DNA of 64,000 bases from a virus. Under the pieces are notes generated by a model, which made no database searches, was not told the origin of the DNA, and worked only from the letters and a program-made list of their open reading frames with translations. How positions within the stretch are numbered: position 1 is the stretch's first letter; each line of letters opens with the position of its first letter. The translations under genes were made by a program, and so were the position numbers. Location of the stretch: the IMG/VR virus record IMGVR_UViG_3300029984_000001, positions 62,001 to 126,000 of that record. One strand, given 5' to 3'. Of this stretch, positions 3,919 to 62,011 are shown in pieces.

Positions 3919-3921
3919 TAA

Positions 3922-3950
3922 ATAGAGAGGAATAATTCCTCTCTATAATT
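3922..3950 (+). terminator. Intrinsic terminator
   Basis: ATAGAGAGG / CCTCTCTAT stem with a short loop followed by AATTTT, directly after the beta' gene. Confidence 0.75.
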
Positions 3951-3974
3951 TTAAAGAAAGAAGGTAATAAATAA

Positions 3975-4805
3975 ATGAAACAATTTATGACTTGAGATCC
4001 AGAAATAGAAAAGACTCACCCAAGAATAGGAGAATCTAATACCAGTACCAATAATACTTATATGCAAATAAATAGATATAAAAATTGTGATAATATTGGA
4101 GTGAAAATGATATCCATATTACCCAACGATGATATCAAATATTTTCAAAAAGAAAAATGTAAATACGAACACTTTAGAGATGGTGCTGTAAAATATCCTT
4201 ATGATAAATCTGTTGTAAGTATTGGTTATTTAGGAGAAGGTATATATAATCCGCAAAATCAACCTAGAGCTTATAATATATGGAAACACATGTTAACTAG
4301 ATGCGATTTCTCCTACAATACAAAAAGACCTACATATGAAACATCAATTCCAGATCCATATTTTCAATCTTTTCAAAATTTTGCAGAATGGTATAACTGT
4401 AATTATTATGAATTCCCAAATGAAAGAATGGACTTAGATAAAGATATTCTTTGTAAGAGAAACAAAATATATCATCCTAATTTATGTATATTTGTACCTC
4501 AATATATAAATACACTTGTAATAGGATGTGATAGTAAAAGAGGAGAGCTTCCTATAGGAGTTCAATTTGATAAAGGTAATTCAATCAATTCTTACATTAC
4601 TAAAGTAAGTGTAAATGGTGTTCAGAAATACTTAGGTTCTTATCCAACTCCAGAAGAAGCTTTTAATGTTTATAAAATTGCTAAAGAAGAAGAGATTAAA
4701 AGAATTGCTAATCTTTATTGGTTTGAAAAAGGTGGTAAAGACATTCCACAATTCGAGAAAGTTTATTTAGCTTTATTAGGTTATCAAGTAGAAATTACAG
4801 ATTAA
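3975..4805 (+). pseudogene. Decayed AP2-type homing endonuclease (in-frame TGA at codon 7)
   Basis: The frame runs from ATG 3975 to TAA 4805 but has TGA at 3993-3995: M-K-Q-F-M-T-stop-D-P-E-I. The continuing frame is homologous along its length to the intact gene at 57594-58448: P-R-I-G-E near the N-terminus, the E-R-M-x-L-D-K-D-I-L block, R-G-E-L-P-I-G-V, and an identical C-terminus V-E-I-T-D. The C-terminal part (about residues 195-245 of the frame) resembles an AP2 DNA-binding domain, often found in free-standing phage HNH homing nucleases. ATG 4062 is in frame but has no ribosome site, so the gene is probably inactive. The stop falls exactly on the Arg of the F-M-x-R motif. Like its intact relative, it sits directly after an RNA polymerase subunit gene. 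Confidence 0.75.
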
Positions 4806-39071: not shown

Positions 39072-40649
39072 TTGGCTATGCTGAAAAAAATGGATAAGAC
39101 AATGGAAGAAAATATTAGAGGATACGGTAATGAGATTATAACAAAGTTATTCCCTGATAATATAAGAGTCAATATAGGAATGTATATTGGTTCAAAAGGA
39201 AATTCTGGTTATTTAAATATGATACGGGAAGTTTTTCAAAATGCTTTTGATGAAGTTATGAGAGCAACAAGAGGTAAATCTCCTTGTAGTATAATAAGGA
39301 TTTTCTTTGATGAAAGAACTTTAGATTGTATGGTACAAGATGATGGTAGAGGTTTACCGTTTGAAAAGATGCATGACATATATGCTGAATTATCTACATC
39401 ATCTAATTATGAGAAGGAATTAGGAGACTACAGCTCAGGCAAACATGGGTTAGGTGGAAAAATTACGAATGCCCTTTGTGATAAATTTTCAGCAGAGTCT
39501 TATCAATTAGGAGATGCAAGAAAAATAGAATTTGAAGATGCAGTTGTTAATAAAAAAGGAATTTATAAGATACCTTATAAAAATAATCAACAAGGTACAT
39601 TAGTTTTATTTCATCCTTCAATAGAAATAATGGGTGGAATTAATCTAACTTGTGAAGAAGTATTAGCAATGATGAGAGGTATAGTATTCTTAGGTAAATT
39701 AGGTAGAATAGTAGAATTTCATGGTATTACTAATATGGGTAAACAAGTTGAAACTACTATAGTTAATGAATATGGAATACTAACAGATTTACTTGGTAGA
39801 GTTAAATCTCAATTGATTACACCAATTTTAATTGGTGGTGATGATGGTAACTGTAAAGCTGATATAGCATTTACATATGATGGTGAAGATACTTTGGAAG
39901 AGATACATAGTTATGCTAACTATTCTCCAACTACAGATGGTACACATGTTAAAGGATTTAAAGCTGGTATATCAAAATTCTTTATGGATTATATGAATAA
40001 GATTTATTTAGCCAAAGCGGGTTCTTTAAAAGGAAAGAAATCTAAATCTAATGCTAAACCATTACAAGTCGTAGCTTCAGATGTAAGTTGTGGATTAAAA
40101 GCTATTGTATCAGCATGTGCATTGATTCCTATCTTTGGAGGACAAGCTAAAGAAACAATAACTAATGAAGAACTTGAGACATTCATAAAAGATTTAGTAA
40201 TTAAAGCATTACAATCTTGGAGTAAAGAGAAGCCTATGGAATTAAATAAGATTTGTAATTATCTTAAAGATATAGCTATACTTCGGACTAAAGATGAAGT
40301 AGAAAAGATAAAGATTGGTTCTAAATATAAGACAGATGCTTTAAGTGGTGGACTTCCAAAGAAGTACCTAAGACCACAAGGAACTAAAGATCTAGAATTT
40401 ATAATAGTTGAAGGGGATTCAGCTTTAGGACCAGGAAGAGCAACAAGATGTAAATCTAGACAAGGTATGTTACCAATTAGAGGAAAGATGCCTAATATCT
40501 TTAATATGACAGATAGAAATAGAAAAGAGTTCTTAGAGAATGATGAAATTGCAGCATTTATTAATATCATATCTGGTGGTACAGGAAAATTCGGTGAAAA
40601 ATTTATGCCTAGTGATACTAAATACACTAAGATTATTATCATGTCGGAT
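39072..40649 (+). CDS. Type II DNA topoisomerase subunit B (GyrB/ParE-like), exon 1
   Basis: TTG start after GAAGGAAGTG. Exon 1 encodes 526 residues. The GHKL ATPase motifs are N-A-F-D-E-V near residue 58, D-D-G-R-G-L-P near 91, and G-K-H-G-L-G-G-K near 124. The TOPRIM domain starts with V-E-G-D-S-A-L-G-P-G-R near 448. The exon ends K-I-I-I-M-S-D, the first Asp of the TOPRIM DxDxD motif. Unspliced translation would stop at 40671-40673. Joining 40649 to 41803 gives I-I-I-M-S-D-A-D-K-D-G-D-H-I, restoring the motif in frame. The spliced protein is 809 aa. With the A subunit directly downstream it forms a phage gyrase/topoisomerase that manages supercoiling and decatenation. Confidence 0.93.
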
Positions 40650-41802
40650 AAAATGTGTGTCCCTTCTCTATAGTAATATAGAGTCGAATAACCTATTAAA
40701 TGCTGGAAAGTCCACAAAAGTTCATAAACCATTATTATAATAAGAAATGGTTACGAAAGTAGAAACAATATATGAACCTGACATATGCTGAAATAAAAGC
40801 TTTAGTTGAGATTCTAAAGTGCTAAGTGTTATTGACAAGGGATTCTCAGCAGTAAAATAATTTGCTTAAATAAAATAATTAATAAAAAGGAGGTGAAAAA
40901 TATGAATGTTTTTATGCAACGATGTTTTGATTATTTTCCTATAAATATATCAAATCCTACTATAGAAATAGTTAGATATCCAGAGATGTGGAAACCTTTG
41001 AATATAATTGGAATAAAATATAATACATATAATATTAGCACAAAAGGTAGAATCTATTCAATACCAAAACAGAGATTATTAAATCCTCAATGTAATTCTG
41101 ATGGATATATGAAAATAAAATTATTAACAAATATTGAATCAAGAGAAGAGTTCAGTTTACATAGATTAGTTTTAATGACATTCTTTCCAATTTTCTATAT
41201 GAATGAATTAGAAGTGAATCATATAAATGGTAAAAAAGATGATAATGATATTGCAAACTTAGAATGGTGTAGTAGATCTCAAAATATACATCATAGTTAT
41301 TTACTTGGGTCTAGAAGTCAAATTGGTGTAAATAATGGTAATGCTAAATTTAATGAAAATGATGTAAGAAGAATATGTGAATATAGACAACAAGGATTAG
41401 TTGCAAGTCAAATATGTAAAGCTATGGATTTGGATTGTGAACCTAATAAGAGACATAGACGAGTAGAAAATATATTATTCGGAGTTACATGGAAACATAT
41501 ATCATCGCAATATGGAATATAAGTTTAAGCAACTTATTTTATTCAACGACTATCGAAAGCTATATACTAAGACAATATTCTTAGTTGAAAATAAGGTATA
41601 TATTAACAATATATACACGAAGCAAGTAGAGTAGAGCCAAGTGGTAGAACCGTTCCGTAATAAGGATATAAGAGTTCTTTAAATCGAAGTGATAGGTTGC
41701 CTATATATGATATAGGTAAATGATATAGTCTTAACACCTACTTAACAGTAGGGAAGTTCATAAGAGAACTGTATTATCTAACGAATAGTATGAAAACAAT
41801 TG
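40650..41802 (+). mobile_element. Group I intron in topoisomerase B gene, with HNH endonuclease ORF
   Basis: The intron of 1153 nt splits the TOPRIM DxDxD motif between two Asp codons. The 5' exon GGAT (40646-40649) pairs with GTCC (40659-40662), giving the U-G pair at the splice site, and the intron ends in G41802. Its flanks match the intron at 2252-3579 closely: AAATGTGT near the 5' end, CTATAGTAATATAG, GTTACGAAAGTAGAAACAAT, TCAACGACTATCGAAAGC and GAACTGTA...ACGAATAGTATGAA at the 3' end. Splicing restores frame and a catalytic motif. Confidence 0.88.
40902..41522 (+). CDS. Intron-encoded HNH homing endonuclease
   Basis: ATG 40902 with AAGGAGGTG upstream; 206 residues, located in the same intron loop as the nuclease at 2518-3303. 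NUMOD4-like N-terminal region (W-K-P-L-N-I-I-G ... I-S-T-K-G-R-I-Y-S) and the HNH core (V-N-H-I-N-G-K-K-D-D-N, L-E-W-C-S-R-S-Q-N-I-H-H-S-Y). A C-terminal region with N-A-K-F-N-E-N-D-V-R-R-I-C likely forms a helix-turn-helix DNA-binding element. The N-terminus M-N-V-F-M-Q-R bears the F4-M5-x-R7 motif. It shares domain order with the other intron nuclease but is shorter. Confidence 0.88.
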   Translation: MNVFMQRCFDYFPINISNPTIEIVRYPEMWKPLNIIGIKYNTYNISTKGRIYSIPKQRLLNPQCNSDGYMKIKLLTNIESREEFSLHRLVLMTFFPIFYMNELEVNHINGKKDDNDIANLEWCSRSQNIHHSYLLGSRSQIGVNNGNAKFNENDVRRICEYRQQGLVASQICKAMDLDCEPNKRHRRVENILFGVTWKHISSQYGI

Positions 41803-42654
41803 GCAGATAAAGATGGAGATCATATAGCTGTACTTGTATTAAAAGTCTTTATGGTATTATATCCAAGATTAGTTGAAGCTGGAATGGTATACAGAGCAAT
41901 AGCTCCATTATATGGTATACCAAATGCTAGGAATAAAAACAAAGTAGATAAATTCTTTACTACAAGATTAGAATATACTGAATGGTTATATAAAAATTTT
42001 AGTAAGAATAATACTATATTAAAACCAGATGGTAAAAAGTTAAGTAACGTTGAAGCAGAAGAAATATTATATAAAAACTCAGATTATACATATGATTTAA
42101 ACGTATTCTCAAATAGTTATGCAATAAATCCTATATTATTAGAACAAGTAATATATAATATTGTAAAAGCAAACCAATCAAAAAAGGATTTATATACCTT
42201 TATGAAAAAATCTATAGAATCTGATAAGAACTTTAGATTCATCAAAGTTGACAAAGTGAATAACATTGTTACTATAAAAGGTGAATATGAAGAACTTGAT
42301 CAAACTATAATTTTAAATAAAGTATTTATGACTGACTTAGAACAATTACTACAACATGTAGCTAATAATGTTTTATTATCTTTTATAATAAATGATAATC
42401 CTTGTAGCTTATATGAATTAGTTACTAAATTTGAAAATAGTGCACCAAAGCATATAAGACGGTATAAAGGATTGGGACAAATGAAAGATCTAGAATTACA
42501 ATCAACAACACTACATCCTGATATGGATAGAACTCTAATAAGATATACAATATTATCTGCTGCTGATTTTATTACAAAAATGAGATATTTAGAAACTGAT
42601 AAATGTAGATTGCTTGTTGGAAGAGTTAATACTAGAGAAGACGTAATGGATTAG
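41803..42654 (+). CDS. Type II DNA topoisomerase subunit B, exon 2
   Basis: Supplies residues 527-809 of the spliced protein. It starts A-D-K-D-G-D-H-I, completing the TOPRIM metal-binding motif, and continues with the B-subunit C-terminal region, including R-R-Y-K-G-L-G-Q-M (the conserved RxKGLGxM/E block) and T-L-H-P-D-M-D-R-T-L. A TTG at 41800 is in frame but is the last intron codon, not a start. The stop lies 13 nt before the A-subunit ATG, whose AGGAGG overlaps the end of this gene. Confidence 0.92.
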   Translation, partial: ADKDGDHIAVLVLKVFMVLYPRLVEAGMVYRAIAPLYGIPNARNKNKVDKFFTTRLEYTEWLYKNFSKNNTILKPDGKKLSNVEAEEILYKNSDYTYDLNVFSNSYAINPILLEQVIYNIVKANQSKKDLYTFMKKSIESDKNFRFIKVDKVNNIVTIKGEYEELDQTIILNKVFMTDLEQLLQHVANNVLLSFIINDNPCSLYELVTKFENSAPKHIRRYKGLGQMKDLELQSTTLHPDMDRTLIRYTILSAADFITKMRYLETDKCRLLVGRVNTREDVMD

Positions 42655-47543: not shown

Positions 47544-48281
47544 ATGGCTGATAAAATTGATAATAAATTAAGAAAAGAAATAGAAGCTATTATATATAAA
47601 TTCTTTGATAAGATGGATAAGTCTGAAACTAATAGTGAGTATTATAAAAATCTATTTGCAAAAATGAGTAATGATGATTTTTATAAATTTGCTTCTCTAG
47701 ATTTCCCGTATAGATTTCATCATAAACCTTGGGTAGTTGAACCTACTATGGGTGATATAAAAGAAGCTTTAAATTTTATAGGAGTTCCTTTAATGGAGAA
47801 AGTTTCACTACCTTATATATATAAAGATGAAAACGGGGTAGCAGTAAACTCTAAAGAAGCTTTAGTCATTTATCCTCCTATGAAGAAGATGCAACAATTC
47901 ATTACACATAAAAACTCTGTTGCTATAGATATAGATAATAGAGATATGAAAAATGGTCAATTGTCTGGTGCAGATAAAGGGGGAAAAACTACAGATAGAG
48001 AGTTAGAATCTTTGGGAATACTTGGATTAGATCATTGTCTTGAAGAGTTTTCTGGTCCTAAAGCAGATAGTATGGAAAGTAAATCTTTAATGTATAATAC
48101 TATTTCTACAACTGGTCAAGTATCTAGCAAAGATATACAAACAGATAATACAGATTCATTATCTAGAAATCTCATGAGTGTATATCTAATGGGTGCTAAT
48201 ATAAATAGTAATATAGTCAACCAAGATTATATGTTGCCTTATACAATGAAAGAGAAATCTAGGTCAATAGAAAGGATTTAA
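47544..48281 (+). CDS. RNA polymerase beta-subunit-like phage protein, 245 aa
   Basis: I choose ATG 47544 (M-A-D-K-I-D-N-K) with GAGGAGGG upstream; the frame extends further 5' but has no ribosome site there. Residues about 60-90 (E-P-T-M-G-D-I-K-E-A-L-N-F-I-G-V-P-L-M-E) and 135-200 (N-G-Q-L-S-G-A-D-K-G-G-K-T-T-D-R-E-L-E-S-L ... L-E-E-F-S-G-P-K-A-D-S-M) match a jumbo-phage family annotated as RNA polymerase beta. In bacterial RpoB the corresponding region is T-x-Q-P-L-G-G-K ... G-E-M-E-V-W-A-L near the C-terminus. The beta fragment at 55376 already has its own such region (F-T-S-E-M-E-V-H-D), so this is either a subunit of a second (virion) polymerase or a stand-alone paralogue. Confidence 0.6.
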   Translation: MADKIDNKLRKEIEAIIYKFFDKMDKSETNSEYYKNLFAKMSNDDFYKFASLDFPYRFHHKPWVVEPTMGDIKEALNFIGVPLMEKVSLPYIYKDENGVAVNSKEALVIYPPMKKMQQFITHKNSVAIDIDNRDMKNGQLSGADKGGKTTDRELESLGILGLDHCLEEFSGPKADSMESKSLMYNTISTTGQVSSKDIQTDNTDSLSRNLMSVYLMGANINSNIVNQDYMLPYTMKEKSRSIERI

Positions 48282-48290
48282 AAAATATTA

Positions 48291-48312
48291 CAATTATATA
48301 TTATAACTGTGT
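48291..48312 (+). promoter_or_regulatory. Early-type phage promoter, TATATTAT-N5-TG
   Basis: ACAATTATATATTAT, 5 nt, TGT, upstream of the small gene at 48376. Confidence 0.72.
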
Positions 48313-48375
48313 AATGATAATTAATTTATATAATGTGTTTAACTTTTATATAAGAAGTCTATGGAGGTGAATTAG

Positions 48376-48501
48376 ATGAGTAATAATGGAAAAGAAACTG
48401 GCATTATTCAAGAACAAGGATTTATTGTTCCTGGAGGGTTTGACAAAATCTCTGATGAAGAAAAAGAAAGATTAGAAAAAGAAAGCAGAGATAAAAAATA
48501 A
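48376..48501 (+). CDS. Small hypothetical protein, 41 aa
   Basis: ATG 48376 after ATGGAGGTGAATTAG. Encodes a short acidic/basic peptide: an N-terminal half with G-F-I-V-P-G-G-F, then a charged helix E-E-K-E-R-L-E-K-E-S-R. It is a single-gene unit between an early-type promoter and a strong terminator, typical of small early phage proteins that target host functions, but nothing more specific is visible. Confidence 0.65.
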   Translation: MSNNGKETGIIQEQGFIVPGGFDKISDEEKERLEKESRDKK

Positions 48502-48510
48502 TGTGTTAAA

Positions 48511-48541
48511 AAGATACTAGGAAAACTAGTATCTTATTTTA
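48511..48541 (+). terminator. Intrinsic terminator
   Basis: Stem AAGATACTAG / CTAGTATCTT with a 5-nt loop followed by ATTTTATTA. Confidence 0.88.
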
Positions 48542-48566
48542 TTATAAAGGAGGTATCAAACAGAAC

Positions 48567-48592
48567 GTTATATCTTATTCTTAAGATATAAC
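48567..48592. repeat. Perfect 11-bp inverted repeat upstream of the glucosaminidase gene
   Basis: GTTATATCTTA - TTCT - TAAGATATAAC. There is no T tract, and it lies about 38 nt before the ATG at 48631 and just after an AAAGGAGGT sequence without a reading frame. Candidate operator or leader hairpin. Confidence 0.5.
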
Positions 48593-48630
48593 AATCATAC
48601 AGAGTGTATAAAGGAAAGGATTTGATTTAA

Positions 48631-49398
48631 ATGAATAAGAAACTTTTTATAGTTTACAATATAATTTTAATATCATTAATAATATTTACAGGAGTAGTTT
48701 TACATAAAAATGAAGAATTAAAAACTACTAATACACAATTAGTAGTAAAATCATGGGAAACAGATAAACAGCTAAGTCAAGTTAAAAATGAAATGAATGC
48801 TTATAAAACATTATACACTTCTCAAGAAGGTGATATAAAAGATTATATAGTTTTATATAAGAAAACTAAAACAGAATTAGATAACCTAAAATCACAAATT
48901 TACATATCTAAAGAAAAAGAGAAAAATGCTTCTAGAGGTGATTACATAAATAAAAATCTTAGTGATTATGCAATAATGACTGTAGATGAGATGAACGAAT
49001 GGATAGCAAAGAGAGCACCTAAAGGTAGTCCTTTTATTGGAAAAGGAGAAGTATTTTTAAAGACAGGAGCTGCTAATAAGATAGACCCTAAGCTAATAGT
49101 AGCATTAGCTGGAAATGAATCTGGATGGGGGATGTCTAAATTAGCTAGAGATAAAGGTAATTATTTTAGTATTACCGCATATAATGATAATCCTTATACC
49201 TCAGCAAAAGCATTCAATGGGGATTTTCAAACAAACATATCAGATGGTGTTGCATGGATAAAGAGTAATTTTTATGATAAAGGGAAAACTTCTTTAGCCC
49301 AAATGCAATCTGAAAATAATAAAGCTTATGCCCAAAATAATGATGGTAGTCCTAATAAAGAATGGACTTCTGTTATTTGTAATATAGTTTACCATTAA
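48631..49398 (+). CDS. Membrane-anchored glucosaminidase (GH73-like) lysin, 255 aa
   Basis: ATG start after AAAGGAAAGG. Residues 5-24 are a signal anchor (F-I-V-Y-N-I-I-L-I-S-L-I-I-F-T-G). Residues about 27-95 form a coiled coil. Residues about 115-255 are a glucosaminidase domain: the catalytic Glu at 163 in A-G-N-E-S-G-W-G, and N-Y-F-S-I-T-A-Y-N-D-N-P, the conserved NYFxI block. The family cleaves the glycan strands of peptidoglycan. The membrane anchor and absence of cell-wall-binding repeats suggest it acts from the cell membrane, in lysis or local wall opening, rather than as a free endolysin. Confidence 0.85.
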   Translation: MNKKLFIVYNIILISLIIFTGVVLHKNEELKTTNTQLVVKSWETDKQLSQVKNEMNAYKTLYTSQEGDIKDYIVLYKKTKTELDNLKSQIYISKEKEKNASRGDYINKNLSDYAIMTVDEMNEWIAKRAPKGSPFIGKGEVFLKTGAANKIDPKLIVALAGNESGWGMSKLARDKGNYFSITAYNDNPYTSAKAFNGDFQTNISDGVAWIKSNFYDKGKTSLAQMQSENNKAYAQNNDGSPNKEWTSVICNIVYH

Positions 49399-49404
49399 AA
49401 ATTT

Positions 49405-49428
49405 ATAATATATATTATTTAAAAATGA
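49405..49428 (+). promoter_or_regulatory. Early-type phage promoter (variant spacing)
   Basis: TAATATATATTAT followed by 7 nt and TGA, 15 nt before the tubulin-like gene start. The core is conserved but the spacing is 7 rather than 5. Confidence 0.6.
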
Positions 49429-49442
49429 AGGAGAGATAAATT

Positions 49443-50633
49443 ATGGAAAATTTAAGAAGATTAAACGTTCAATTAATAGGTATAGGTGGAGCAGGAAATA
49501 AAGGTACAATTAATGTTGTAGAAAAAGGTGTACTAGAAAAAGATGATATATTCTTAATCAATTCAACAATGAGAGATGTAGCTCCAGATTATAAAGATAT
49601 AGCATATATCTATGATACTGTAGGTGGTTCTGGTAAAGATATGAAATTTGCTGAATCTTTAGCAAAAAAAGAATTAGAAAGAGGAACTTTGGGTCAACAA
49701 TTAAATGAATGGGTAAAACCAGATACAGATATTGTAGTCATTACAGGAAGTACAGAAGGTGGTACTAATGCTGGTTCTATTTCAGTAATTACTGATTTCA
49801 TATATGATGAATTAGATATTCCAGTGGTTAATATATTATTAACAGGATTTATGAAAGATGCAAGAGGAGTTAAAAATACAATAGATGTATTCAAGAAACT
49901 TAGAATAAAAGAAATAGGTGTCCAAACTATATCCAGTTCAAAGTGTCTAGAAGGTAAAGATATAGTTAAAGCACAACAACACGCTAATGATGAATTAGCT
50001 CAAAGAATATCTATATTAATAACTAAAGGTATTGTTGATAGTGATGATAATATAGATAATACTGACTTATATAATACAGCAGCATTCCCTGGATATATGA
50101 CTATAGAACATATTCCATTACCAAAATTAAAAGATATGAATGCTTTTAATGAAACTTTAAATACAATGATAAATGGTTCTAAGTCGTTAGATATAGATCC
50201 AGAAGAAGATAAAAAGAAAGTTGGTAAAAGAGCAGTATTTATAAACTTAAAAGATGAAAAAGAAAAAATGTTTGTAGATTTTGAATTTGAATCTTTAAAA
50301 GAATATTATGGTGAACCTTATGATAAATTTGATCATATTCAATTTGAAAAAGATCAAGAAAGTTATATATCAGTAATACTTACAGGTATGAATATGCCAT
50401 TGGCTGAATTAATAGATATGGAAAATAAATATAAAATGTTAAATTCTTCTGTAAATAAAGAGGTAGATACATTCGATGAAGTTGTTGCTGATATGAAAAG
50501 TGATGTAGATGATGGTATGTTTGACATAGGTAGAAAAAGAAGAAGACCTAAAGAGAATGTTTCGGGTCCAGAACATATGAAAAAATATGGAGTTAAACAA
50601 GAAGAAAAAGCTAAAGATGATATTTATAAATAA
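49443..50633 (+). CDS. Tubulin/FtsZ-family GTPase (PhuZ/TubZ-like), 396 aa
   Basis: ATG start after GAAGGAGAGATAAATT. The N-terminal nucleotide-binding loop G-I-G-G-A-G-N-K-G (13-21) and the tubulin signature-like loop T-G-S-T-E-G-G-T-N-A-G-S (101-112) identify the tubulin/FtsZ superfamily; the signature is a divergent form of GGGTG(S/T)G. The C-terminal region has a basic stretch (G-R-K-R-R-R-P-K) and a charged tail, as in PhuZ and TubZ. Known phage tubulins form filaments that centre a phage nucleus, transport capsids (PhuZ) or segregate phage DNA (TubZ). Which applies here cannot be told. An early-type promoter precedes it. Confidence 0.85.
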   Translation: MENLRRLNVQLIGIGGAGNKGTINVVEKGVLEKDDIFLINSTMRDVAPDYKDIAYIYDTVGGSGKDMKFAESLAKKELERGTLGQQLNEWVKPDTDIVVITGSTEGGTNAGSISVITDFIYDELDIPVVNILLTGFMKDARGVKNTIDVFKKLRIKEIGVQTISSSKCLEGKDIVKAQQHANDELAQRISILITKGIVDSDDNIDNTDLYNTAAFPGYMTIEHIPLPKLKDMNAFNETLNTMINGSKSLDIDPEEDKKKVGKRAVFINLKDEKEKMFVDFEFESLKEYYGEPYDKFDHIQFEKDQESYISVILTGMNMPLAELIDMENKYKMLNSSVNKEVDTFDEVVADMKSDVDDGMFDIGRKRRRPKENVSGPEHMKKYGVKQEEKAKDDIYK

Positions 50634-50651
50634 AAGGAGATTGATAAATAT

Positions 50652-51536
50652 ATGTTTGAAAACTTGATAGAACATGTTAAGAAACAACCAATCCCAGAAA
50701 AACATTATATAGATATGACTGAATCTAGATTAATGAATCCTAATTTATTGTCTGACAAAATAAAAGATATATCACTATTAGAAGATAATGAATTGCTTCA
50801 ATTACTAATAATTGATTATCCTACTATACTAGAAGAGATAGTTGAGAAGAAGAACGTTGTATATATTAATCTATTCAAGAAACCTAGATTCTTAACCATA
50901 TTTACTAATGCTGTGAGTTATAATATATCAAGAGGAAAACCTTTAGAACCACAAAATAGGATATATATAAATATAATCATATATGATTATATTTGCCATA
51001 CAGAAAAAGATATGATGTTAAAATCATTAATGGCTAATTTATCTAAGATAGTAAATAGAGATATGATTCCTATGATTATGGCTATAGGAATCCCAGAAGA
51101 GTTAGCATGTACAATTTCTATAGCAAGATATTCATCTAGACAAGAATATATTAATATAAAAAGAGTTAATCTAATTATACTTGGTTCTCCATTAGAATTA
51201 ATGACAGAACAAATGATAGTGGATTTAATAAGTGTTATATATGATAAGATGCCAATATTATTTGAAACAATAATGTTTGATCACACTATAGATAATGATA
51301 ACACTGAAGATGAGGGTGAAATCTACAGTAGAATTTCAAATGCAATATTAACTCATTTAGAGAATATGACTTTGGAAAATATCACTACAGTGTTAAAGAT
51401 GTATTCAAATGATTATGTGTTATTACATTCAAATGAAGATGTAAGATTTAGTTTAAGAAGCATAAACAATACTGATTTTCCAAGGATTAACCAAACGGTT
51501 GATTCAATGATTATGAAGGGTGAATACATTCCATAA
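50652..51536 (+). CDS. Hypothetical protein, 294 aa
   Basis: ATG start after AAAAGGAGATTGATAAATAT, 18 nt after the tubulin-like gene and therefore probably co-transcribed. Mostly helical, rich in Ile, Met and acidic residues. No motif recognised. Its position makes it a candidate partner or regulator of the filament protein, but virion or other roles are equally possible. A strong terminator follows. Confidence 0.6.
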   Translation: MFENLIEHVKKQPIPEKHYIDMTESRLMNPNLLSDKIKDISLLEDNELLQLLIIDYPTILEEIVEKKNVVYINLFKKPRFLTIFTNAVSYNISRGKPLEPQNRIYINIIIYDYICHTEKDMMLKSLMANLSKIVNRDMIPMIMAIGIPEELACTISIARYSSRQEYINIKRVNLIILGSPLELMTEQMIVDLISVIYDKMPILFETIMFDHTIDNDNTEDEGEIYSRISNAILTHLENMTLENITTVLKMYSNDYVLLHSNEDVRFSLRSINNTDFPRINQTVDSMIMKGEYIP

Positions 51537-51548
51537 TATAAAAGAAGC

Positions 51549-51578
51549 AAAAGGGTATAAAAACCCTTTTGTTTTTTG
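51549..51578 (+). terminator. Intrinsic terminator
   Basis: Stem AAAAGGGT / ACCCTTTT followed by GTTTTTTG. Confidence 0.88.
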
Positions 51579-51596
51579 TGTAAATATTTAAAATTA

Positions 51597-51618
51597 TAAT
51601 TGTATATTATAATAGTGA
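51597..51618 (+). promoter_or_regulatory. Early-type phage promoter, TATATTAT-N5-TG
   Basis: ATAATTGTATATTAT, 5 nt, TGA, upstream of the gene at 51658. Confidence 0.72.
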
Positions 51619-51657
51619 ATAAATATATAATAATTTTAAAGAAGGAAGTGTATTAAT

Positions 51658-52488
51658 ATGGAAAAAGATAATGTAAAATCGTCTAAAGAAATTGAAAGTA
51701 ATATAAAAGAAATAGGGTTAGAAAAAATTAATATAATAATAGATGATGTACGAATACAAAATAATAACCCAAATGTAGAAGGTGATAGAGATTTATCTAT
51801 TTTATCATTAGAATCTAGTATAGATAAAGAATATATTAAAGAATTTAATAGAGTAAAACCTTTAACAAACAATGAACTGAACGAAATAAAAAAGTATGCA
51901 GATGAACAATTAGAAGAGATTGGTTTAGAAAAAGGATTATTAGATAAATTTATAGATGGATATAAAATAAGATTTAATACCACTAAAGTAGGTTTTAATG
52001 AAATAGATGCACCTATTCACAGAACAACATTATTACATTATGCAGGTATAAATAATATTCAATCGCAAATGAATGGTGGGTATAATAACAATATTAATTA
52101 TACTAATGTATATTATACAAATCCATATGTAGATTATAATGAAAGTACCCTTAATACATTATTATTACTACTCAGCGATAATATGTTTGATACATCACCA
52201 TCTGAAAGAAAGTTTAAAAAAATAAGAATATATTTTTGTAGAGATAACAATAAAAATGTAAATCTTGTTATATCCTTTAGATCATTTTATAAATCTTTAT
52301 GGGATCAAGCTCCAGAAGGATTTGTAAGACAAATATCTATCCCTTTAGTTATGAATGGTGAAATAGAAAATAAAATATCAATGTTTAAACAAGATATATC
52401 AGCAGGATATTCAATAGATAATGATTGGTTAAATATATTAGTAGAAAAAATAAAAGAATGGTTTGGAATAGAAATAAATTTAGTATAA
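51658..52488 (+). CDS. Hypothetical protein, 276 aa
   Basis: ATG start after AAGGAAGTGTATTAAT. An acidic N-terminal third (S-K-E-I-E-S-N-I-K-E) precedes an Asn/Tyr-rich middle (G-G-Y-N-N-N-I-N-Y-T-N-V-Y-Y-T) and a C-terminal alpha/beta part. No family recognised. First gene of an early unit of five to six small genes ending at 53667. Confidence 0.6.
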   Translation: MEKDNVKSSKEIESNIKEIGLEKINIIIDDVRIQNNNPNVEGDRDLSILSLESSIDKEYIKEFNRVKPLTNNELNEIKKYADEQLEEIGLEKGLLDKFIDGYKIRFNTTKVGFNEIDAPIHRTTLLHYAGINNIQSQMNGGYNNNINYTNVYYTNPYVDYNESTLNTLLLLLSDNMFDTSPSERKFKKIRIYFCRDNNKNVNLVISFRSFYKSLWDQAPEGFVRQISIPLVMNGEIENKISMFKQDISAGYSIDNDWLNILVEKIKEWFGIEINLV

Positions 52489-52503
52489 AGGAAGTGTATT
52501 AAC

Positions 52504-53040
52504 ATGAAAAATGAAATACAAAAATGTATAGTGCGGTTAACTAATAAATTATCAGAAAGTAATTTATCTGAATGCTCATCTGATTTTAAAGTAAATAAAA
52601 ATAAAAAGGCTTTTGATGAATTTTATAAAGTCTTATCACAACATATAGATTTTAACAATTTAACTAAAAAAGAAGTCGAAGAATTAGGATTTAAATTATA
52701 TGATAAAGAGTATAGTTTATGGCGTATACCTTTATATCTATACCCAATTTTACCAGAAGGTTTAGAAATAAAATCTATTGATAATATTAAAAGAATAGTA
52801 GGTAAAGATAATATAGATCCAGATCATAGGTCTGGATATATTGCTTATAATATAAATATAAACAATGATATAAATAAAGTAAACATATTAGATAAATACA
52901 ATAATTTATTAAAAGATGGTTGGGGACACATAAGATTAGAAATTATAGAAGATGAAGAATTTGGTAAAGCTATGGTTGAAGATGGAGATGGTAGACCAGT
53001 TTCATTTTCTTATAATAAAGATACTGGAAATTGGGAATAA
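52504..53040 (+). CDS. Hypothetical protein, 178 aa
   Basis: ATG start after AAAGGAAGTGTATTAAC. Charged N-terminal helices and a C-terminal beta region (D-G-D-G-R-P-V-S-F-S-Y). No motif recognised. Part of the early unit 51658-53667. Confidence 0.6.
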   Translation: MKNEIQKCIVRLTNKLSESNLSECSSDFKVNKNKKAFDEFYKVLSQHIDFNNLTKKEVEELGFKLYDKEYSLWRIPLYLYPILPEGLEIKSIDNIKRIVGKDNIDPDHRSGYIAYNININNDINKVNILDKYNNLLKDGWGHIRLEIIEDEEFGKAMVEDGDGRPVSFSYNKDTGNWE

Positions 53041-53058
53041 TTAAAAGGGGGTGTATAT

Positions 53059-53322
53059 ATGAAAAATAAAAATTTTCCATTGAAAGGAAAAATAATAAAT
53101 ACAAATAATTCTGAATTTAATATTGAAGATATACCAATATTAAATAGTAGTATTACTATATTTTCTGATTTACCAGAAATAGATTCAAATATTAAAAAGA
53201 TGAATGAAAATATATTTATATCAAAACCAATAAAAATATCAGAGTCTCATATAGATTTTCTAACTAGAATGACATTGGAGAGTTTATTTAAAAACTTAAA
53301 AGAAAGTGATAGAGAAATATAA
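53059..53322 (+). CDS. Hypothetical protein, 87 aa
   Basis: ATG start after AAAGGGGGTGTATAT. A short protein with Asn/Ile-rich first half and a helical C-terminus (T-R-M-T-L-E-S-L-F-K-N-L-K-E). No family recognised. Part of the early unit. Confidence 0.55.
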   Translation: MKNKNFPLKGKIINTNNSEFNIEDIPILNSSITIFSDLPEIDSNIKKMNENIFISKPIKISESHIDFLTRMTLESLFKNLKESDREI

Positions 53323-53354
53323 TTTAGATAAAATATTAGGAGGATTTGATTGAT

Positions 53355-53513
53355 ATGAAAAAAGAAATACAAGACCATATTAAATATCTAAAAAGTCTAA
53401 CTATCGAAGAGAAGAATCAAAAGTTTGATAAATTTTTAAATGGATTAAAAGATTTAAATTTAGATTTAAATAATGAATTGAAAATATTAAAAACGATAAG
53501 AGGTGAATATTAA
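53355..53513 (+). CDS. Small helical hypothetical protein, 52 aa
   Basis: ATG 53355 after TTAGGAGGATTTGATTGAT. Encodes M-K-K-E-I-Q-D-H-I-K-Y-L-K and further Lys/Glu/Leu-rich sequence, predicted fully helical and perhaps a coiled coil. The stop at 53511-53513 lies one base before the next gene's ATG. No function recognised. Confidence 0.6.
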   Translation: MKKEIQDHIKYLKSLTIEEKNQKFDKFLNGLKDLNLDLNNELKILKTIRGEY

Positions 53514-53514
53514 G

Positions 53515-53667
53515 ATGAATAATGTTAAAATAACCAATGAAAACATTATACAAGGAAATTCAACATCAAATACTATAGTAATAGGATTCAATGAAATTTC
53601 AAATAATATTCCAATAGAAATAAATTCTATTGGAATGAGATTGTTTTTATTGAATAGAAAAATATAA
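53515..53667 (+). CDS. Small hypothetical protein, 50 aa
   Basis: ATG 53515, with AGAGGTG inside the end of the previous gene as its ribosome site. Encodes a beta-rich peptide (I-I-Q-G-N-S-T-S-N-T-I-V-I-G-F). It ends at TAA 53665-53667 and is followed by a terminator. No family recognised. Confidence 0.55.
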   Translation: MNNVKITNENIIQGNSTSNTIVIGFNEISNNIPIEINSIGMRLFLLNRKI

Positions 53668-53680
53668 TTTCTTAAAAATA

Positions 53681-53712
53681 TTAGGGTGCCCACTCACCCT
53701 TTTATTTTTTTG
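53681..53712 (+). terminator. Intrinsic terminator
   Basis: Stem AGGGTG / CACCCT followed by TTTATTTTTTTG. Confidence 0.82.
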
Positions 53713-53733
53713 TAAAATAAGGAGTGATAATAT

Positions 53734-53946
53734 ATGGATGCTTTTGAAAAACATATAGCTAAATGTATTCAGAATAGGGATAATTATAAACCATATAAAC
53801 CTGTATATAAAAAAGATATTATTCAAATTGATCCTAAAGATATACCATTACCAAAATTTAGAAAATTTGAACAGAGATATTTAGTTGATGAAAATGGAAA
53901 TGAAATAAAACTACCAGACTTATTTGAAAGAGAACAAGAAAAATAA
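53734..53946 (+). CDS. Hypothetical protein, 70 aa
   Basis: ATG start after AAGGAGTGATAATAT. A small charged protein with Tyr/Lys/Pro-rich middle (Y-K-P-Y-K-P-V-Y-K-K-D) and acidic C-terminus. No family recognised. It lies between a terminator and the recombinase gene; no clear promoter of either phage type precedes it. Confidence 0.55.
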   Translation: MDAFEKHIAKCIQNRDNYKPYKPVYKKDIIQIDPKDIPLPKFRKFEQRYLVDENGNEIKLPDLFEREQEK

Positions 53947-54013
53947 GTATACATTTTATTTTTTATTACATACTAGGAAACTATAAACTAATATAAATTA
54001 GGAGGTTTAAACT

Positions 54014-55258
54014 ATGAGTTTATTAGCACAAAGATTTAGAGATATTACATCTAAAAGTAAAGACAAAACTATGTCTATGGAAGCTAAAGGTAATATATGT
54101 TATTCAACAGGATTTGTTACTTTTGATTTCTTAAATGGTTATTTAGTTCACGTACAAAATGAAAAGAAGAATTTAAATTATAAGTATTATAATTGTGGGA
54201 TTCAAGATGGAACAATGAATTTATTCATTGGTAGATCACAATCTGGTAAAACTACATTTGCAATGCAAAGTGGATTTAATATTATTAAAGATTATCCTAC
54301 AGCATGTTTTTTTCATGATGATGTAGAGGGTGGAATTAATGACGCTAGAAAGAGAGTACTTACAGGACTTCCAATGGAAGCATTAAAAGAGAAATATATA
54401 TGTAGAGATGCAGGAGTACATACAGAAAACTTCTATGAAAGAATTAGAATGATATATGAAGAAAAATTGAATAACTATAAGGATTATTCTTATGATACTG
54501 GGGTTTTGGGTGAGTCTGGAGACCCATTAATAAAATTAGAACCTACAGTATATTTATTAGACTCAATGGCGATGTTGTGTTCTAAAGATTTAGCAGATGA
54601 AGCAGGACTTCCATCACCAATGCAAATTCCTGGTATTGCTAAGAAAAACACTACAATGCTTAGACAAATTACACCAATGCTTAAAGCTGCAAATATCATA
54701 TTATTTGTCATCAATCATCTTTTACCAGAAATTTCTATTATGCCAAAGAAGGGTCAATTGAGATATCTTAAACCTGGAGAAAGAATTACAGCAGGTGAAA
54801 CACAAATATTACTTGCAAGTAATACTATAAGATTTGATGATAGTAAATTGAAAGAAAAAGATGGGATGGGATTTGAAGGTGCATTTGTAGACGTATCATT
54901 AGTTAAATCAAGACAAAACATTTCAGGTAGAGCTGTAACTATGGTATTTGATCCTAAGATTGGTTATGATCCAGATTTATCATTATTAGCTTTATTAAAA
55001 GCTAATGGAAAAATTAACGGTCAAGGACAAGGTATGTATTTATTTGATAGAGACGATGTTAAGTTCTCCCAAAAGAAATTCAAAGAAAAATTAAATGATG
55101 AAAATGAAACAGAATTCTATGATCTTGTTATGTCTTCAGTTATGGAAGTTCTTAAATCTATGGTTATTGAGAATGATGATAGTAAGATATTGAATAGAAA
55201 TGAAAGATTCTCTAGTGGTATATTGGCTAAAATGAATAGTATGGTCAAAGCCGCATAA
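54014..55258 (+). CDS. RecA/UvsX-like recombinase, 414 aa
   Basis: ATG start after TTAGGAGGTTTAAACT. The RecA fold is visible: Walker A G-R-S-Q-S-G-K-T (73-80), Walker B-type strand T-V-Y-L-L-D-S-M-A-M, the F-V-I-N-H-L segment where RecA has its sensor and loop L1, and S-R-Q-N-I-S-G-R-A-V-T-M-V-F-D. The arrangement resembles phage UvsX-type strand-exchange proteins more than bacterial RecA. It would pair DNA strands in recombination-dependent replication and repair, together with the SbcD-type nuclease and DnaB-type helicase in this window. Confidence 0.85.
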   Translation: MSLLAQRFRDITSKSKDKTMSMEAKGNICYSTGFVTFDFLNGYLVHVQNEKKNLNYKYYNCGIQDGTMNLFIGRSQSGKTTFAMQSGFNIIKDYPTACFFHDDVEGGINDARKRVLTGLPMEALKEKYICRDAGVHTENFYERIRMIYEEKLNNYKDYSYDTGVLGESGDPLIKLEPTVYLLDSMAMLCSKDLADEAGLPSPMQIPGIAKKNTTMLRQITPMLKAANIILFVINHLLPEISIMPKKGQLRYLKPGERITAGETQILLASNTIRFDDSKLKEKDGMGFEGAFVDVSLVKSRQNISGRAVTMVFDPKIGYDPDLSLLALLKANGKINGQGQGMYLFDRDDVKFSQKKFKEKLNDENETEFYDLVMSSVMEVLKSMVIENDDSKILNRNERFSSGILAKMNSMVKAA

Positions 55259-55375: not shown

Positions 55376-57544
55376 TTGAACAATGTATTAGAGATTAATA
55401 GAAATATTGTAGAAATTATAGAGAAAGAAAAAACTAGAATACCTAATATGGAAAGATTATTAGGATATTCTGCAAATATGCCATCGAACTCTGCTAACAG
55501 TGGATCTCGTCGCTTATTAATGGTTTCACAAGCATCACAAAGACTTGAGGTTTATAATTCTCAAAGACCTCTTTTATCTACTGGATCAGAAAATCAGATA
55601 GGACATTATTCTTCAGAATTTGTTAAGACTGAAGATGAATTGAAAGTAATCGCTAGAGTAGAAAAATATAGATTTGTACCTGGACATAATTATTTTCTAT
55701 TAGTACAGAATACTAGAACAGGGGAATTTGATTTTATACAAAGGATAGGACATAGTCATAATACAGAATCTTACGGATTCTTGTATAACAATACATATAT
55801 AGATAAAGTAAAACCAGGATACACAATACCAAAAGGAGTTCCAATTAAAAAATCTACTTCATATGATGATAATAATAATAGGGAGGATGGAGTTAATCTC
55901 GACGTTACTTATATAACTAATGAAGAAACAAAAGAGGATTCTATTGAAATATCAGATTATGGTGCTGAATTATTATCTGCCCCTTTAATAGAAAATTTCT
56001 CTACTTTCTTAAGTGAAAATGAAATACCTGTAAATACATATGGGAATGATACAGTATATAAAGCTATTCCAGATATAGGAGAAAAAATAGCTAATGGTAT
56101 AGTTATGGTTACTAGAGTTGAAAAGAAGAATGAAATAATGTTTGCACAGTCAACCGAAAATTTGAAAAAGATATTTATAGGAGATACTAGATTTTCTTTA
56201 AAAGGTGAAGTAGTAGATATAAATATATATTGTAATAATCCTGAATTTTTAAATACTAATCCTAATTATGCTCAGTTTAAATATTACTATGATCAACAAA
56301 TGGATTTTGCAAAAGAAATGGTAGACGCGATTGAAACATATACAGATGTAAAGAGACATTCTTATCAATTAGAAAAATTACATTATAGATTAAAACAACA
56401 ACTAGAAGAAGTTCCGTTCTCTAAAGATAAAAGTTTTAGTAATATTCTAATTGAAATTACTGCTGTAGAAATGAATCCTTTAAGAGTTGGTGATAAGATC
56501 ACAAATAGATATGGTGGTAAAGGAGTTATATCTGAAATAAGACCAAGACATATGATGCCATATACTATTGTCAATGGAGAGAAAATTTATGCAGATATAA
56601 TTTATAATTCTAATACATGTGTTAATAGAGTTAACCCTGGACAACTATTTGAGATGTCTATAAACTTCATTGGTCAAAATATAACTTCTAGAATAAATGC
56701 AGGCGATAATATAAATTCTCTAATGGAAATGTACTATAATTTTATAAGAATAGTCGCACCAGACATGTATAAATTTGTTAGAGAGAAATTTAAAGTAGAT
56801 GAATTAGGTTCAATGGTACAAATATTAGAATCTATTAAAAGAGATGGTGGAATTAATGTATCACAAAAACCTATAACAGAAGTAATGACAGTAGATAAAT
56901 TGAAAGAATTGTATGATGTATTACCTTGGATAGAACAGTATAAAGTAATTGTCCCTCAAGTAAACAGTAATGGGGATATTAGATACATTTACGCTAGAAG
57001 AAGAATGGTAATATCAAAACAATACATGTATAGATTAAAACAGTATGCAGAAGAGAAATTCTCTGTTACTTCTTTATCTACCACTAATATCAGAAATGAA
57101 AATAGTAAGAACTCTTTGAAGAAGAACCATAAATCTCCTTACTCAAAAACCCCTACTCGCTTCACCTCGGAGATGGAGGTTCATGACATGATTCATTTAG
57201 GTGCAGAGAATGTTATTACAATATTAATGATACATTCAGCATCTCCAGCTGCACGGCGTCTTTGTGAACAGTTGTTAACAGGAGATCCGTTTAAAGTTGA
57301 TATAAGATTAGATGAAAATTGTAGAAACCGTTCAGTGGAGATAGTTAATACATATTTAAGAACCATAGGATTGAAATTGAACTTTAAGAAAATTCCTAGG
57401 GTTAAAACACAATTTATGACTAGAAGTATAGATTTTATGGAAAGATGTAAAGAGGATGAAAAGTTAACATTTATGCATCGTGATTCATTTGATACCAAAA
57501 GAAAATTTTGTCATAGAGGTAGAAGTAAATTAAAAAGAGATTAA
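55376..57544 (+). CDS. RNA polymerase beta subunit, C-terminal fragment, 722 aa
   Basis: TTG start after GAGGGGAGTG. It carries the C-terminal half of beta: G-D-K-I-T-N-R-Y-G-G-K-G-V-I-S-E-I (cellular GDKMAGRHGNKGV), M-M-P-Y, R-V-N-P-G-Q-L-F-E-M (cellular MNxGQxLE), and F-T-S-E-M-E-V-H-D (cellular RFGEMEVWAL). This forms part of the active-site lining and switch/clamp region. After the conserved core, the C-terminal tail holds three F-M-x-R motifs (680-683, 687-690, 699-702) and a basic end (R-G-R-S-K-L-K-R-D). The N-terminal half is encoded separately from 62712. Such a split matches AR9/phiKZ-type polymerases. Confidence 0.92.
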   Translation: MNNVLEINRNIVEIIEKEKTRIPNMERLLGYSANMPSNSANSGSRRLLMVSQASQRLEVYNSQRPLLSTGSENQIGHYSSEFVKTEDELKVIARVEKYRFVPGHNYFLLVQNTRTGEFDFIQRIGHSHNTESYGFLYNNTYIDKVKPGYTIPKGVPIKKSTSYDDNNNREDGVNLDVTYITNEETKEDSIEISDYGAELLSAPLIENFSTFLSENEIPVNTYGNDTVYKAIPDIGEKIANGIVMVTRVEKKNEIMFAQSTENLKKIFIGDTRFSLKGEVVDINIYCNNPEFLNTNPNYAQFKYYYDQQMDFAKEMVDAIETYTDVKRHSYQLEKLHYRLKQQLEEVPFSKDKSFSNILIEITAVEMNPLRVGDKITNRYGGKGVISEIRPRHMMPYTIVNGEKIYADIIYNSNTCVNRVNPGQLFEMSINFIGQNITSRINAGDNINSLMEMYYNFIRIVAPDMYKFVREKFKVDELGSMVQILESIKRDGGINVSQKPITEVMTVDKLKELYDVLPWIEQYKVIVPQVNSNGDIRYIYARRRMVISKQYMYRLKQYAEEKFSVTSLSTTNIRNENSKNSLKKNHKSPYSKTPTRFTSEMEVHDMIHLGAENVITILMIHSASPAARRLCEQLLTGDPFKVDIRLDENCRNRSVEIVNTYLRTIGLKLNFKKIPRVKTQFMTRSIDFMERCKEDEKLTFMHRDSFDTKRKFCHRGRSKLKRD

Positions 57545-57547
57545 ATA

Positions 57548-57576
57548 TTAGATAGGATTAATCTCCTATCTAATAC
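57548..57576 (+). terminator. Hairpin after RNA polymerase beta gene
   Basis: Stem TTAGATAGGA / TCCTATCTAA with a 6-nt loop. The following sequence TACAAAAAAG lacks a good T tract, so termination may be partial. Confidence 0.5.
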
Positions 57577-57593
57577 AAAAAAGAGGTGATAAA

Positions 57594-58448
57594 ATGGAAA
57601 TGAAAAAATTCATGACTAGAGATGAAAAGATTAATCCAGATTTATTATTGAGATATCCACGTATAGGTGAGACTAGTATAAATAAAAGAGGAAGTACATT
57701 AGAAATAGTAGATTATAGAAAATGGGATCAAGTAGATGTAATGGTAATAACTAGATTAGAATCTGGTGAATTCAAATATTATAGATCAAATAATTGTGAA
57801 TATAGTTGTTTCATCAAAGGTTCAATAGGATCACCTTTTGACAAATCTACTTGTGGTGTTGGATATATGGGAATTGGGTCTTATTCATCTATCACACACC
57901 CAAAACTTCATATGTTTTGGAGTGGTATGTTATTTAGAGGATATAATGATAAGTATTATGGAAATAATACTTATATGGATGTAACAGTAGATTTTAGATT
58001 TCATAATTTTCAATATTTTGCAGAGTGGGCTGAACAGAACTATTATGAAATCAATGGAGAAAGAATGACCTTGGATAAAGATGTATTATTTAAAGGTAAT
58101 AAAATATACAGTCCAGAAACTTGTTGTTTTCTCCCTAATAACCTAAATGTAATGTTTACAAAAAGACAAATCGATAGAGGAGAATTACCAATAGGTGTAA
58201 CACGTAAGGATGATTGTACACAAAATCCTTATAGAGTTTCTATGTCTGTGGATGGGAAGGGTGCTGTTCATATTGGGACATTTCCAACTCCAGAAAAAGC
58301 ATTCATTGCTTATAAAGAAGCAAAGGAAGAAGAGATAGAAAAACAAGCAAATATATACTTGAATGAGAAAGGCGGACAATTTATTCCACAGTTTAGAGAC
58401 ATTGTTTATCCAGCTTTATTACGTTATAAAGTCGAGATTACAGATTAA
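57594..58448 (+). CDS. Free-standing AP2-domain homing endonuclease, 284 aa
   Basis: ATG start after AAGAGGTGATAAA; an in-frame ATG two codons later would give M-K-K-F-M-T-R. Residues about 90-190 contain conserved Trp, His and Cys positions (M-F-W-S-G-M-L-F-R-G-Y, F-A-E-W-A, E-R-M-T-L-D-K-D-V-L) of the phage HNH/AP2 homing nuclease type. Residues about 200-260 (R-G-E-L-P-I-G-V ... Y-R-V-S-M-S-V-D-G-K ... I-G-T-F-P-T-P-E-K-A-F-I-A-Y) are an AP2-like DNA-binding domain. It is the intact relative of the broken gene at 3975-4805, with the same C-terminus V-E-I-T-D. Both sit directly behind RNA polymerase genes. Confidence 0.75.
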   Translation: MEMKKFMTRDEKINPDLLLRYPRIGETSINKRGSTLEIVDYRKWDQVDVMVITRLESGEFKYYRSNNCEYSCFIKGSIGSPFDKSTCGVGYMGIGSYSSITHPKLHMFWSGMLFRGYNDKYYGNNTYMDVTVDFRFHNFQYFAEWAEQNYYEINGERMTLDKDVLFKGNKIYSPETCCFLPNNLNVMFTKRQIDRGELPIGVTRKDDCTQNPYRVSMSVDGKGAVHIGTFPTPEKAFIAYKEAKEEEIEKQANIYLNEKGGQFIPQFRDIVYPALLRYKVEITD

Positions 58449-61996: not shown

Positions 61997-62011
61997 TATA
62001 CATAAGTACCT

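Follow-up and report, generated by a model that had tools for sequence, protein, structure and literature searches.

Positions 62001–126000 of the IMG/VR virus record IMGVR_UViG_3300029984_000001, which has 263,571 bases and may be incomplete, form the 64,000-nucleotide stretch analysed here and called the window throughout. On its plus strand an open reading frame (ORF) of 396 amino acids (49443..50633) is followed by one of 294 amino acids (50652..51536), with 18 nt separating the stop codon of the first from the start codon of the second. A preliminary description of the window had read the pair as a phage tubulin gene with a co-transcribed partner, and both ORFs and their spacing are as it gave them. 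An AR9-type early-promoter motif, TAATATATATTAT (49406..49418, plus strand), ends 24 nt before the tubulin start codon, with TATATATTAT at 49409, and a terminator-like hairpin with a 9-bp stem (51548..51571) directly follows the partner gene. The scan lists this hairpin on the minus strand, and by inspection the plus strand also reads as a stem followed by TTTTTT.

The first ORF almost certainly encodes a GTPase of the tubulin/FtsZ superfamily, the original assignment being borne out by the family profile, PDB matches and the predicted fold. Taken alone, the sequence scores 11.9 bits against Pfam Tubulin, below the cut-off of 33, and its PDB match to FtsZ stands at 9.5e-6; among 50,697 phage records nothing matches it at E≤0.01, and initial pattern searches for close relatives of the tubulin or the partner found none. 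A UvsX-anchored search of IMG/VR returned 56 loci, AR9 itself (L038) included. In the window and these fetched loci, phmmer with the window tubulin retrieved 21 ORFs, two of them the window's own gene, which represent 14 distinct sequences; the window tubulin is 18–36% identical to the aligned family members. At E≤0.01, Pfam Tubulin recognises thirteen of the 14 rows (best 2.7e-20), the exception being the window, and the profile of the whole family matches FtsZ (7.4e-19), TubZ (1.5e-11) and phiKZ PhuZ (0.0096) in the PDB. The FtsZ model TIGR00065 is matched by eight of the 14 members (best 2.4e-12), phrog_4733 (PhuZ) by seven (best 1.4e-11) and phrog_17961, which has no assigned function, by four; the window sequence matches none of the three at an E-value of 0.01. 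Its predicted structure (pLDDT 83.6, pTM 0.80) comprises a folded core to about residue 340 and a low-confidence, predicted disordered tail of about 50 residues (346–396). The 50 structural matches listed are to tubulin-family structures, with Z of 26.2–33.9 over 289–341 residues, led by c-st TubZ (Z 33.9, 2.3 Å, 294 residues), TubZ-Bt (31.7) and CetZ (31.2), with FtsZ reaching 28.5. PhuZ is absent from these 50 VIA matches, and Foldseek puts Goslar PhuZ 34th (4.7e-15).

Two loops of the GTPase deserve separate mention, the T4 GTP-binding loop GSTEGGTNAGS (residues 102–112; 49746..49778, plus strand) and the T7 synergy loop N-I-D-N-T-D (50049..50066, plus strand), whose role is known from the tubulin family. 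Across 32 aligned distinct tubulins the T7 aspartates, D205 and D208 in the window, are kept in every sequence, and the first T7 position (N203) is N in 26, D in five and A in one. The T4 loop reads GGTGSG in 25, GASGSG in three, GGSGSG in two and GGTGAG in one, while GGTNAG occurs in the window alone. The divergent T4 loop had been taken, along with a basic tail, as the sign of a separate kind of tubulin; because the odd loop belongs to the window sequence alone, this argument fails. The basic patch RKRRRPK (residues 364–370; 50532..50552, plus strand) is real and lies in the predicted disordered tail, but it is not common to the family and does not distinguish it either. At one relative (L036:6424-7494) and the loci identical to it, the first ATG of the tubulin omits the first nucleotide-binding loop, and the frame stays open for 19 further residues upstream without ATG, GTG or TTG.

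The phylogenetic position of the protein was evaluated in a maximum-likelihood tree of 39 sequences, consisting of the 14 family members, three further phage relatives, nine PhuZ, six TubZ and seven FtsZ; several of the FtsZ rows derive from megaplasmids, and one TubZ row (Lysinibacillus) is a very long branch. The window tubulin lies in a 12-row phage clade with support of 100/100. The seven sampled FtsZ and the nine PhuZ each form a 100/100 clade that excludes it, as does a five-row TubZ clade (91/93), and a second giant-phage clade (100/98), referred to as clade B, holds L034, L036, G035, G036 and G038. Grouping the window alone with FtsZ is rejected by the approximately unbiased (AU) test (p 0.0006), which together with the tree speaks against a placement inside FtsZ and supports the separation from FtsZ that the preliminary description had proposed. 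Joining the 12-row clade with PhuZ (AU p 0.43), FtsZ (0.22) or TubZ (0.11) is rejected in no case, leaving the deep order unsettled. As judged from these sequences, the best supported reading is that of a distinct phage tubulin lineage outside the sampled FtsZ, PhuZ and TubZ groups.

The 294-residue partner belongs to an uncharacterised family. As a single sequence it has no match in Pfam, PHROG or the 50,697 phage records, and its family profile has none among PDB sequences, so that the earlier verdict of no known family holds across everything searched. Its model is all-helical (pLDDT 84.4, pTM 0.77). Among 964 solved chains aligned to it the best Z is 6.5; TOG, HEAT and adaptin-like chains are found among the weak rows, and a resemblance to TOG/HEAT proteins was rejected, this value not being significant. 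Such weak Z values are common for helical proteins. In BFVD, three uncharacterised Myoviridae sp. entries without assigned function (A0A8S5TGM0, A0A8S5UFH2 and A0A8S5UTP4; E 5.4e-11 to 2.0e-9) have a predicted fold like the partner's at E≤0.001.

In the window and the UvsX loci, 18 ORFs (13 distinct sequences) match the partner. The gene downstream of the clade-B tubulins encodes about 290–350 amino acids, and the five-row alignment of this downstream family (A4) meets the partner in hhalign with a probability of 92.2% and a score of 54.3 over 241 columns; the highest score among 60 column shuffles is 20.1, and the reversed control gives 18.3. Taken singly, the L036 gene reaches 65.7% and the L034 gene 3.0%, so the case for clade B rests on the combined profile. 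The profiles also recognise each other's members, at E-values that refer to the small sets searched: the A3 partner profile matches L241, L248 and L253 at 9.8e-7 to 1.5e-8, an expanded partner profile matches five clade-B partners at 6e-5 to 2.9e-9, and A4 matches the G010 partner, the same gene as in L238, at 3.3e-5 and 7.3e-6. On this profile evidence the divergent clade-B downstream genes are homologous to the partner, some being recognised by profiles only. A 312-aa gene 12 nt behind the L033 tubulin, considered as a candidate divergent partner, gives 18.7% in hhalign, 0.1% against A4 and no match to the expanded profile, and L033 was counted as having no partner; the gene downstream of the L028 tubulin is not a partner (13.1% over 60 residues).

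The pairing of both genes was then followed across 50 whole records, namely the window's own and 49 of the 60 loci L002–L061. Tubulin was found in 23 and an A3-type partner in 20, with both in eight; with eight clade-B records added, the partner is present in 28 and both genes in 16, and in all of these 16 the partner lies directly downstream of the tubulin on the same strand. Two tubulin-led scans contributed 11 and 17 loci, of which 4 and 12 came from records new to the set, resulting in 39 tubulin-bearing records, 38 of them testable (L243 is cut off behind the tubulin). A partner homolog follows the tubulin in 31 of these 38, across two tubulin clades, a count that includes near-duplicates and does not equal 31 independent events. 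No same-strand ORF of at least 100 aa intervenes in 30 of the 31; L233 has an HNH-like gene in between. All 16 testable clade-B loci carry the partner, and in G035, G036 and G038 the pair is intact about 96, 61 and 113 kb from UvsX, and therefore stays together outside the UvsX neighbourhood. This conserved adjacency supports a functional pair, probably a filament and its adaptor. Clade B furthermore displays a third gene after tubulin and partner (L034:8956-9864, L083:3760-4161, L240 and others), the start of which looks alike in several records, e.g. MIGIYNGSKTPW and MNVSIITVGGKHTPW, suggesting a three-gene cassette.

Transcription of the pair as one unit is suggested by its flanking signals. 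In AR9 (L002), ATATATTAT is present in all eight annotated early promoters and TATATATTAT in six. The plus strand of the window has 12 copies of TATATATTAT, nine of which are intergenic (14–336 nt before the next start), in a window that is 90.8% coding, and three inside genes; the minus strand has two, one being the palindromic reading of the 49409 site. The exact 12-mer AATATATATTAT has five matches on both strands against 1.24, a number reached by 3 of 100 shuffles, and is thus only mildly over-represented, making positional enrichment the better promoter evidence. The early-type promoter previously noted in front of the tubulin accordingly holds at the level of the motif. As the motif precedes the pair, the hairpin follows it and no copy of TATATATTAT lies between the two genes, co-transcription is likely. 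An early-promoter-like motif, often AATTATATATTAT and a variant of AR9's AAATATATATTAT, precedes several genes phage-wide (window 994–61208). Predicted sigma-70 promoters number 71, fewer than the shuffle mean of 84.6, and were dropped in favour of the AR9 motif.

The source of the DNA is given by its other genes. A UvsX-like recombinase (54014..55258, plus strand), which served as synteny anchor for finding relatives, lies 2.5 kb beyond the pair; its nearest counterparts are in Bacillus phages of the AR9/PBS1 type, AR9's being 33% identical to it, and in giant phages of Staphylococcus. The window also has RNA polymerase beta-subunit genes of the multisubunit type found in phages, along with genes for a type II topoisomerase, a DnaB-like helicase and an NAD-dependent ligase, and the genome is therefore that of an AR9/PBS1-like giant phage. 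By UvsX, the AR9/PBS1, SA1, LPJP1 and BpSp phages belong to the same group, with RNA polymerase genes beside UvsX and, in AR9, the early-promoter motif. Synteny of the pair with AR9 was rejected, since our profiles find neither tubulin nor partner in AR9, SA1, LPJP1 or BpSp. Among the relatives, L027 and L028 are close kin with flanks 88% and 93% identical; at one and the same site L028 has 1,326 bp with the tubulin and L027 has 23 bp. Like PhuZ, the tubulin thus belongs to the accessory genes.

We put the probability at roughly one in two that tubulin and partner form a two-gene cytoskeletal cassette, filament plus adaptor to phage cargo, of AR9/PBS1-like giant phages without detected chimallin; the two would probably cooperate in an internal system for transport or positioning. 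The analysis shows the family, fold, loops, separate lineage, conserved pairing and non-detection of chimallin; polymerisation, binding of the partner to the tail and cargo are inferred, in the following manner. Judging from the motif, the pair would be expressed early from the AR9-type promoter. The conserved loops and the fold suggest a GTP-binding tubulin whose subunits join head to tail in dynamic filaments, in which the T7 loop of one subunit would complete the active site of the next. The all-helical partner may act as a scaffold that docks these filaments, probably via their flexible C-terminal tails, to replicating DNA, a replication compartment or procapsids. An adaptor between capsid and PhuZ has been postulated from a 3–4 nm gap in tomograms, and is not named in the accessible portion of that paper (PMC8314001); we count this postulate for the filament–adaptor model.

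Several results weigh against this cassette, and some of them speak for its strongest rival, according to which the tubulin is a working filament and the 294-aa protein an unrelated core phage protein, e.g. virion or regulatory, that shares a long-standing operon position with it and whose adjacency is inherited and not functional. The partner is found without tubulin, as judged by the A2 tubulin profile, in 12 of the 50 records, seven of at least 185 kb and five fragments below 110 kb; Pfam Tubulin also finds none in them, a weak check as it misses the window's own tubulin. There the partner keeps its place behind other genes: in ten records a membrane-anchored or secreted-looking gene lies upstream, several with LysM-like or lysin-like stretches by inspection, with a 162- or 178-aa gene intervening in four of the ten, and in G013 and G014 the partner follows what looks like a DHFR-like gene. 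Conversely, seven of the 23 tubulin records have no detected partner (G015–G018, G021, G023 and G027). G015–G018 and G021 are one lineage in which UvsX directly follows the tubulin, and G027 has a 312-aa unassigned gene in the slot. On the UvsX tree, in which the basal branching of the 28-row clade with the window is poorly resolved, tubulin requires ten changes and the partner seven. Five supported independent contrasts emerge, in which the partner changes the same way as the tubulin in 3.2, the opposite way in 0.1 and not at all in 1.7 on average; the sign test is not significant (median p 0.25). The partner fold, with its best Z of 6.5, moreover has no clear relative. What speaks for a functional link is that the pair is kept in two tubulin clades, in three records far from UvsX, and at all 16 testable clade-B loci. 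The partner is likewise missing from four related records that have no tubulin (G034, G040, G041 and G045), but their near-identical UvsX makes them one lineage, with two fragments among them. We therefore consider mere inherited adjacency a serious alternative that is nonetheless somewhat unlikely. The proposal that the 294-aa gene is a filament partner stays credible with a homolog behind 31 of 38 tubulins, whereas the 12 records with the partner but no tubulin found, and the seven with the tubulin but no detected partner, speak against a strict pair.

Each of the 16 distinct clade-B tubulins has a short, FtsZ-like hydrophobic peptide (e.g. IDLGAIFDKFK) at its end, within the last 30 residues, which shuffled clade-B tails contain with a mean of 0.03 and a maximum of 1. 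Clade-A tails carry a looser motif (e.g. DFFANL) in eight of 16, compared to a shuffled mean of 1.3 and maximum of 5, and a count of 8 is not reached in any of 500 shuffles. We count the tail motifs in favour of the cassette. Against it stand two points: the patterns were drawn up with the tails already in view, so these numbers flatter them, and the window tubulin's own tail matches neither. The tubulins of the partner-less L020/L021/L022 lineage have no tail motif. L028 and L033, in which no partner was detected, do have it, and the motif thus does not track the partner cleanly. The C-terminal peptide of FtsZ binds adaptors such as FtsA, ZipA and SepF, and the clade-B terminal peptide, placed behind a flexible linker, resembles this adaptor-binding peptide. 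A bolder extension of the filament–adaptor cassette, which we offer only tentatively and regard as unlikely in full, would be a third phage tubulin system, in which a tailed tubulin and a dedicated helical, tail-reading adaptor move or place DNA or procapsids without a chimallin nucleus; in tubulin-less relatives, the adaptor may have switched its ligand, e.g. to host FtsZ.

Alternatively, the filaments could be a PhuZ equivalent that positions a DNA compartment built without recognisable chimallin. PhuZ of Chimalliviridae (phiKZ gp39; PHROG 4733) is likewise a giant-phage tubulin that occurs with multisubunit RNA polymerases; both phage kinds belong to the same broad class of RNA-polymerase-encoding giant phages, for which a correlation of tubulin with such polymerases is reported (PMC7824862). 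Half of our tubulin family matches its profile, and joining the 12-row clade to PhuZ is, as given above, not rejected. However, the window lies outside the nine-row PhuZ clade, a helical partner is conserved behind window-type tubulins, the gene behind phiKZ PhuZ carries a phosphatase-family annotation, and no chimallin was found. At E≤1 the chimallin family, phrog_4795, identified via phiKZ gp54, matches neither the window's 263.6-kb record nor any of 26 others, AR9 and SA1 included (27 of 27 non-phiKZ records), while the phiKZ positive control reaches 1.8e-232; this search would overlook a highly divergent shell protein, and the records may not be complete. The nuclear-shell idea raised in the preliminary description thus finds no support. 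This negative agrees with published statements that PBS1 and PALS_2 have multisubunit RNA polymerases but no chimallin (PMC10299810) and that AR9-like phages are placed outside Chimalliviridae (PMC13282480); the pseudo-nucleus is also stated to be absent from uracil-DNA jumbo phages (PMC7598289). We hence judge a PhuZ equivalent improbable, more so than inherited adjacency.

A TubZ-type partition of a plasmid-like carrier state appears quite doubtful. TubZ of Bacillus-type plasmids and phage c-st supplies the closest predicted folds (Z 33.9 and 31.7), the 12-row clade joined with TubZ is not rejected, and tblastn with a clade-B relative finds TubZ-like genes of plasmids as well as phage G gp138. 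In five of six sampled TubZ loci, however, a 94–103-aa gene lies directly upstream (Pontibacillus is the exception, and the annotation of the plasmids is incomplete), whereas here a 255-aa lysin-like gene takes this place, with no tubR-like small gene between it and the tubulin. Centromere repeats were not seen near the gene either: no iteron-like array was seen at 48200–54100 among the 20 largest of 36 direct-repeat families with 2–3 copies each, and the window tubulin is outside the five-row TubZ clade. In Bacillus phage G (L121:3692-5119, gp137-gp138), a 297-nt gene ends directly before gp138, noted as FtsZ-like, as in plasmid TubZ-like loci. Least probable of all, and indeed very unlikely, is a mimic that blocks division of the infected host by co-assembling with its FtsZ or capping it: the best PDB sequence matches are FtsZ, eight of 14 members match TIGR00065, and the GTPase core and flexible linker are FtsZ-like, as is the terminal hydrophobic peptide of clade B, but the window is not inside the FtsZ clade, shares only 15–19% identity with FtsZ over the fold, and has T7 aspartates whose retention in 32 of 32 tubulins suggests a GTPase cycle of its own.

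The lysin-like upstream gene (48631..49398, plus strand, 255 aa) encodes a glucosaminidase domain and, by inspection, an N-terminal hydrophobic segment. The gene at 47382-48281 matches phrog_3233, labelled RNA polymerase beta subunit, and many relatives have genes of similar appearance, about 240 aa long, upstream of the tubulin/partner site. At 1085-4805, 39072-42654 and 55376-58448 the RNA polymerase and topoisomerase genes have HNH-endonuclease genes interrupting them or lying next to them; these were recognised by PHROG at 2518-3303, 4062-4805 and 57594-58448, and by inspection at 40893-41522. An Rfam scan of the window at gathering scores returned nothing, and no intron was recognised by it. 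In Staphylococcus phage SA1 (L003, 7838-12976), a phage without tubulin, genes near UvsX carry the annotations prohibitin family and toxic anion resistance protein.

As far as the accessible text of one review goes, two kinds of FtsZ/tubulin are counted in jumbo phages (PMC7824862), and the available parts of others describe phage tubulin function around the chimallin nucleus or plasmid-like partition (PMC12908238, PMC7950403). By title and start of abstract, the open-licence literature yielded no report of a tubulin in AR9/PBS1-type phages, which is not proof of absence. A distinct tubulin lineage without detectable chimallin would separate "phage tubulin" from "phage nucleus", and turns the question to the cargo of the filament. 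The conserved adjacent partner is a concrete candidate for an adaptor between filament and cargo, of the kind postulated for PhuZ in the accessible portion of PMC8314001, and L028 and L027, with and without tubulin at one site, offer a natural comparison.

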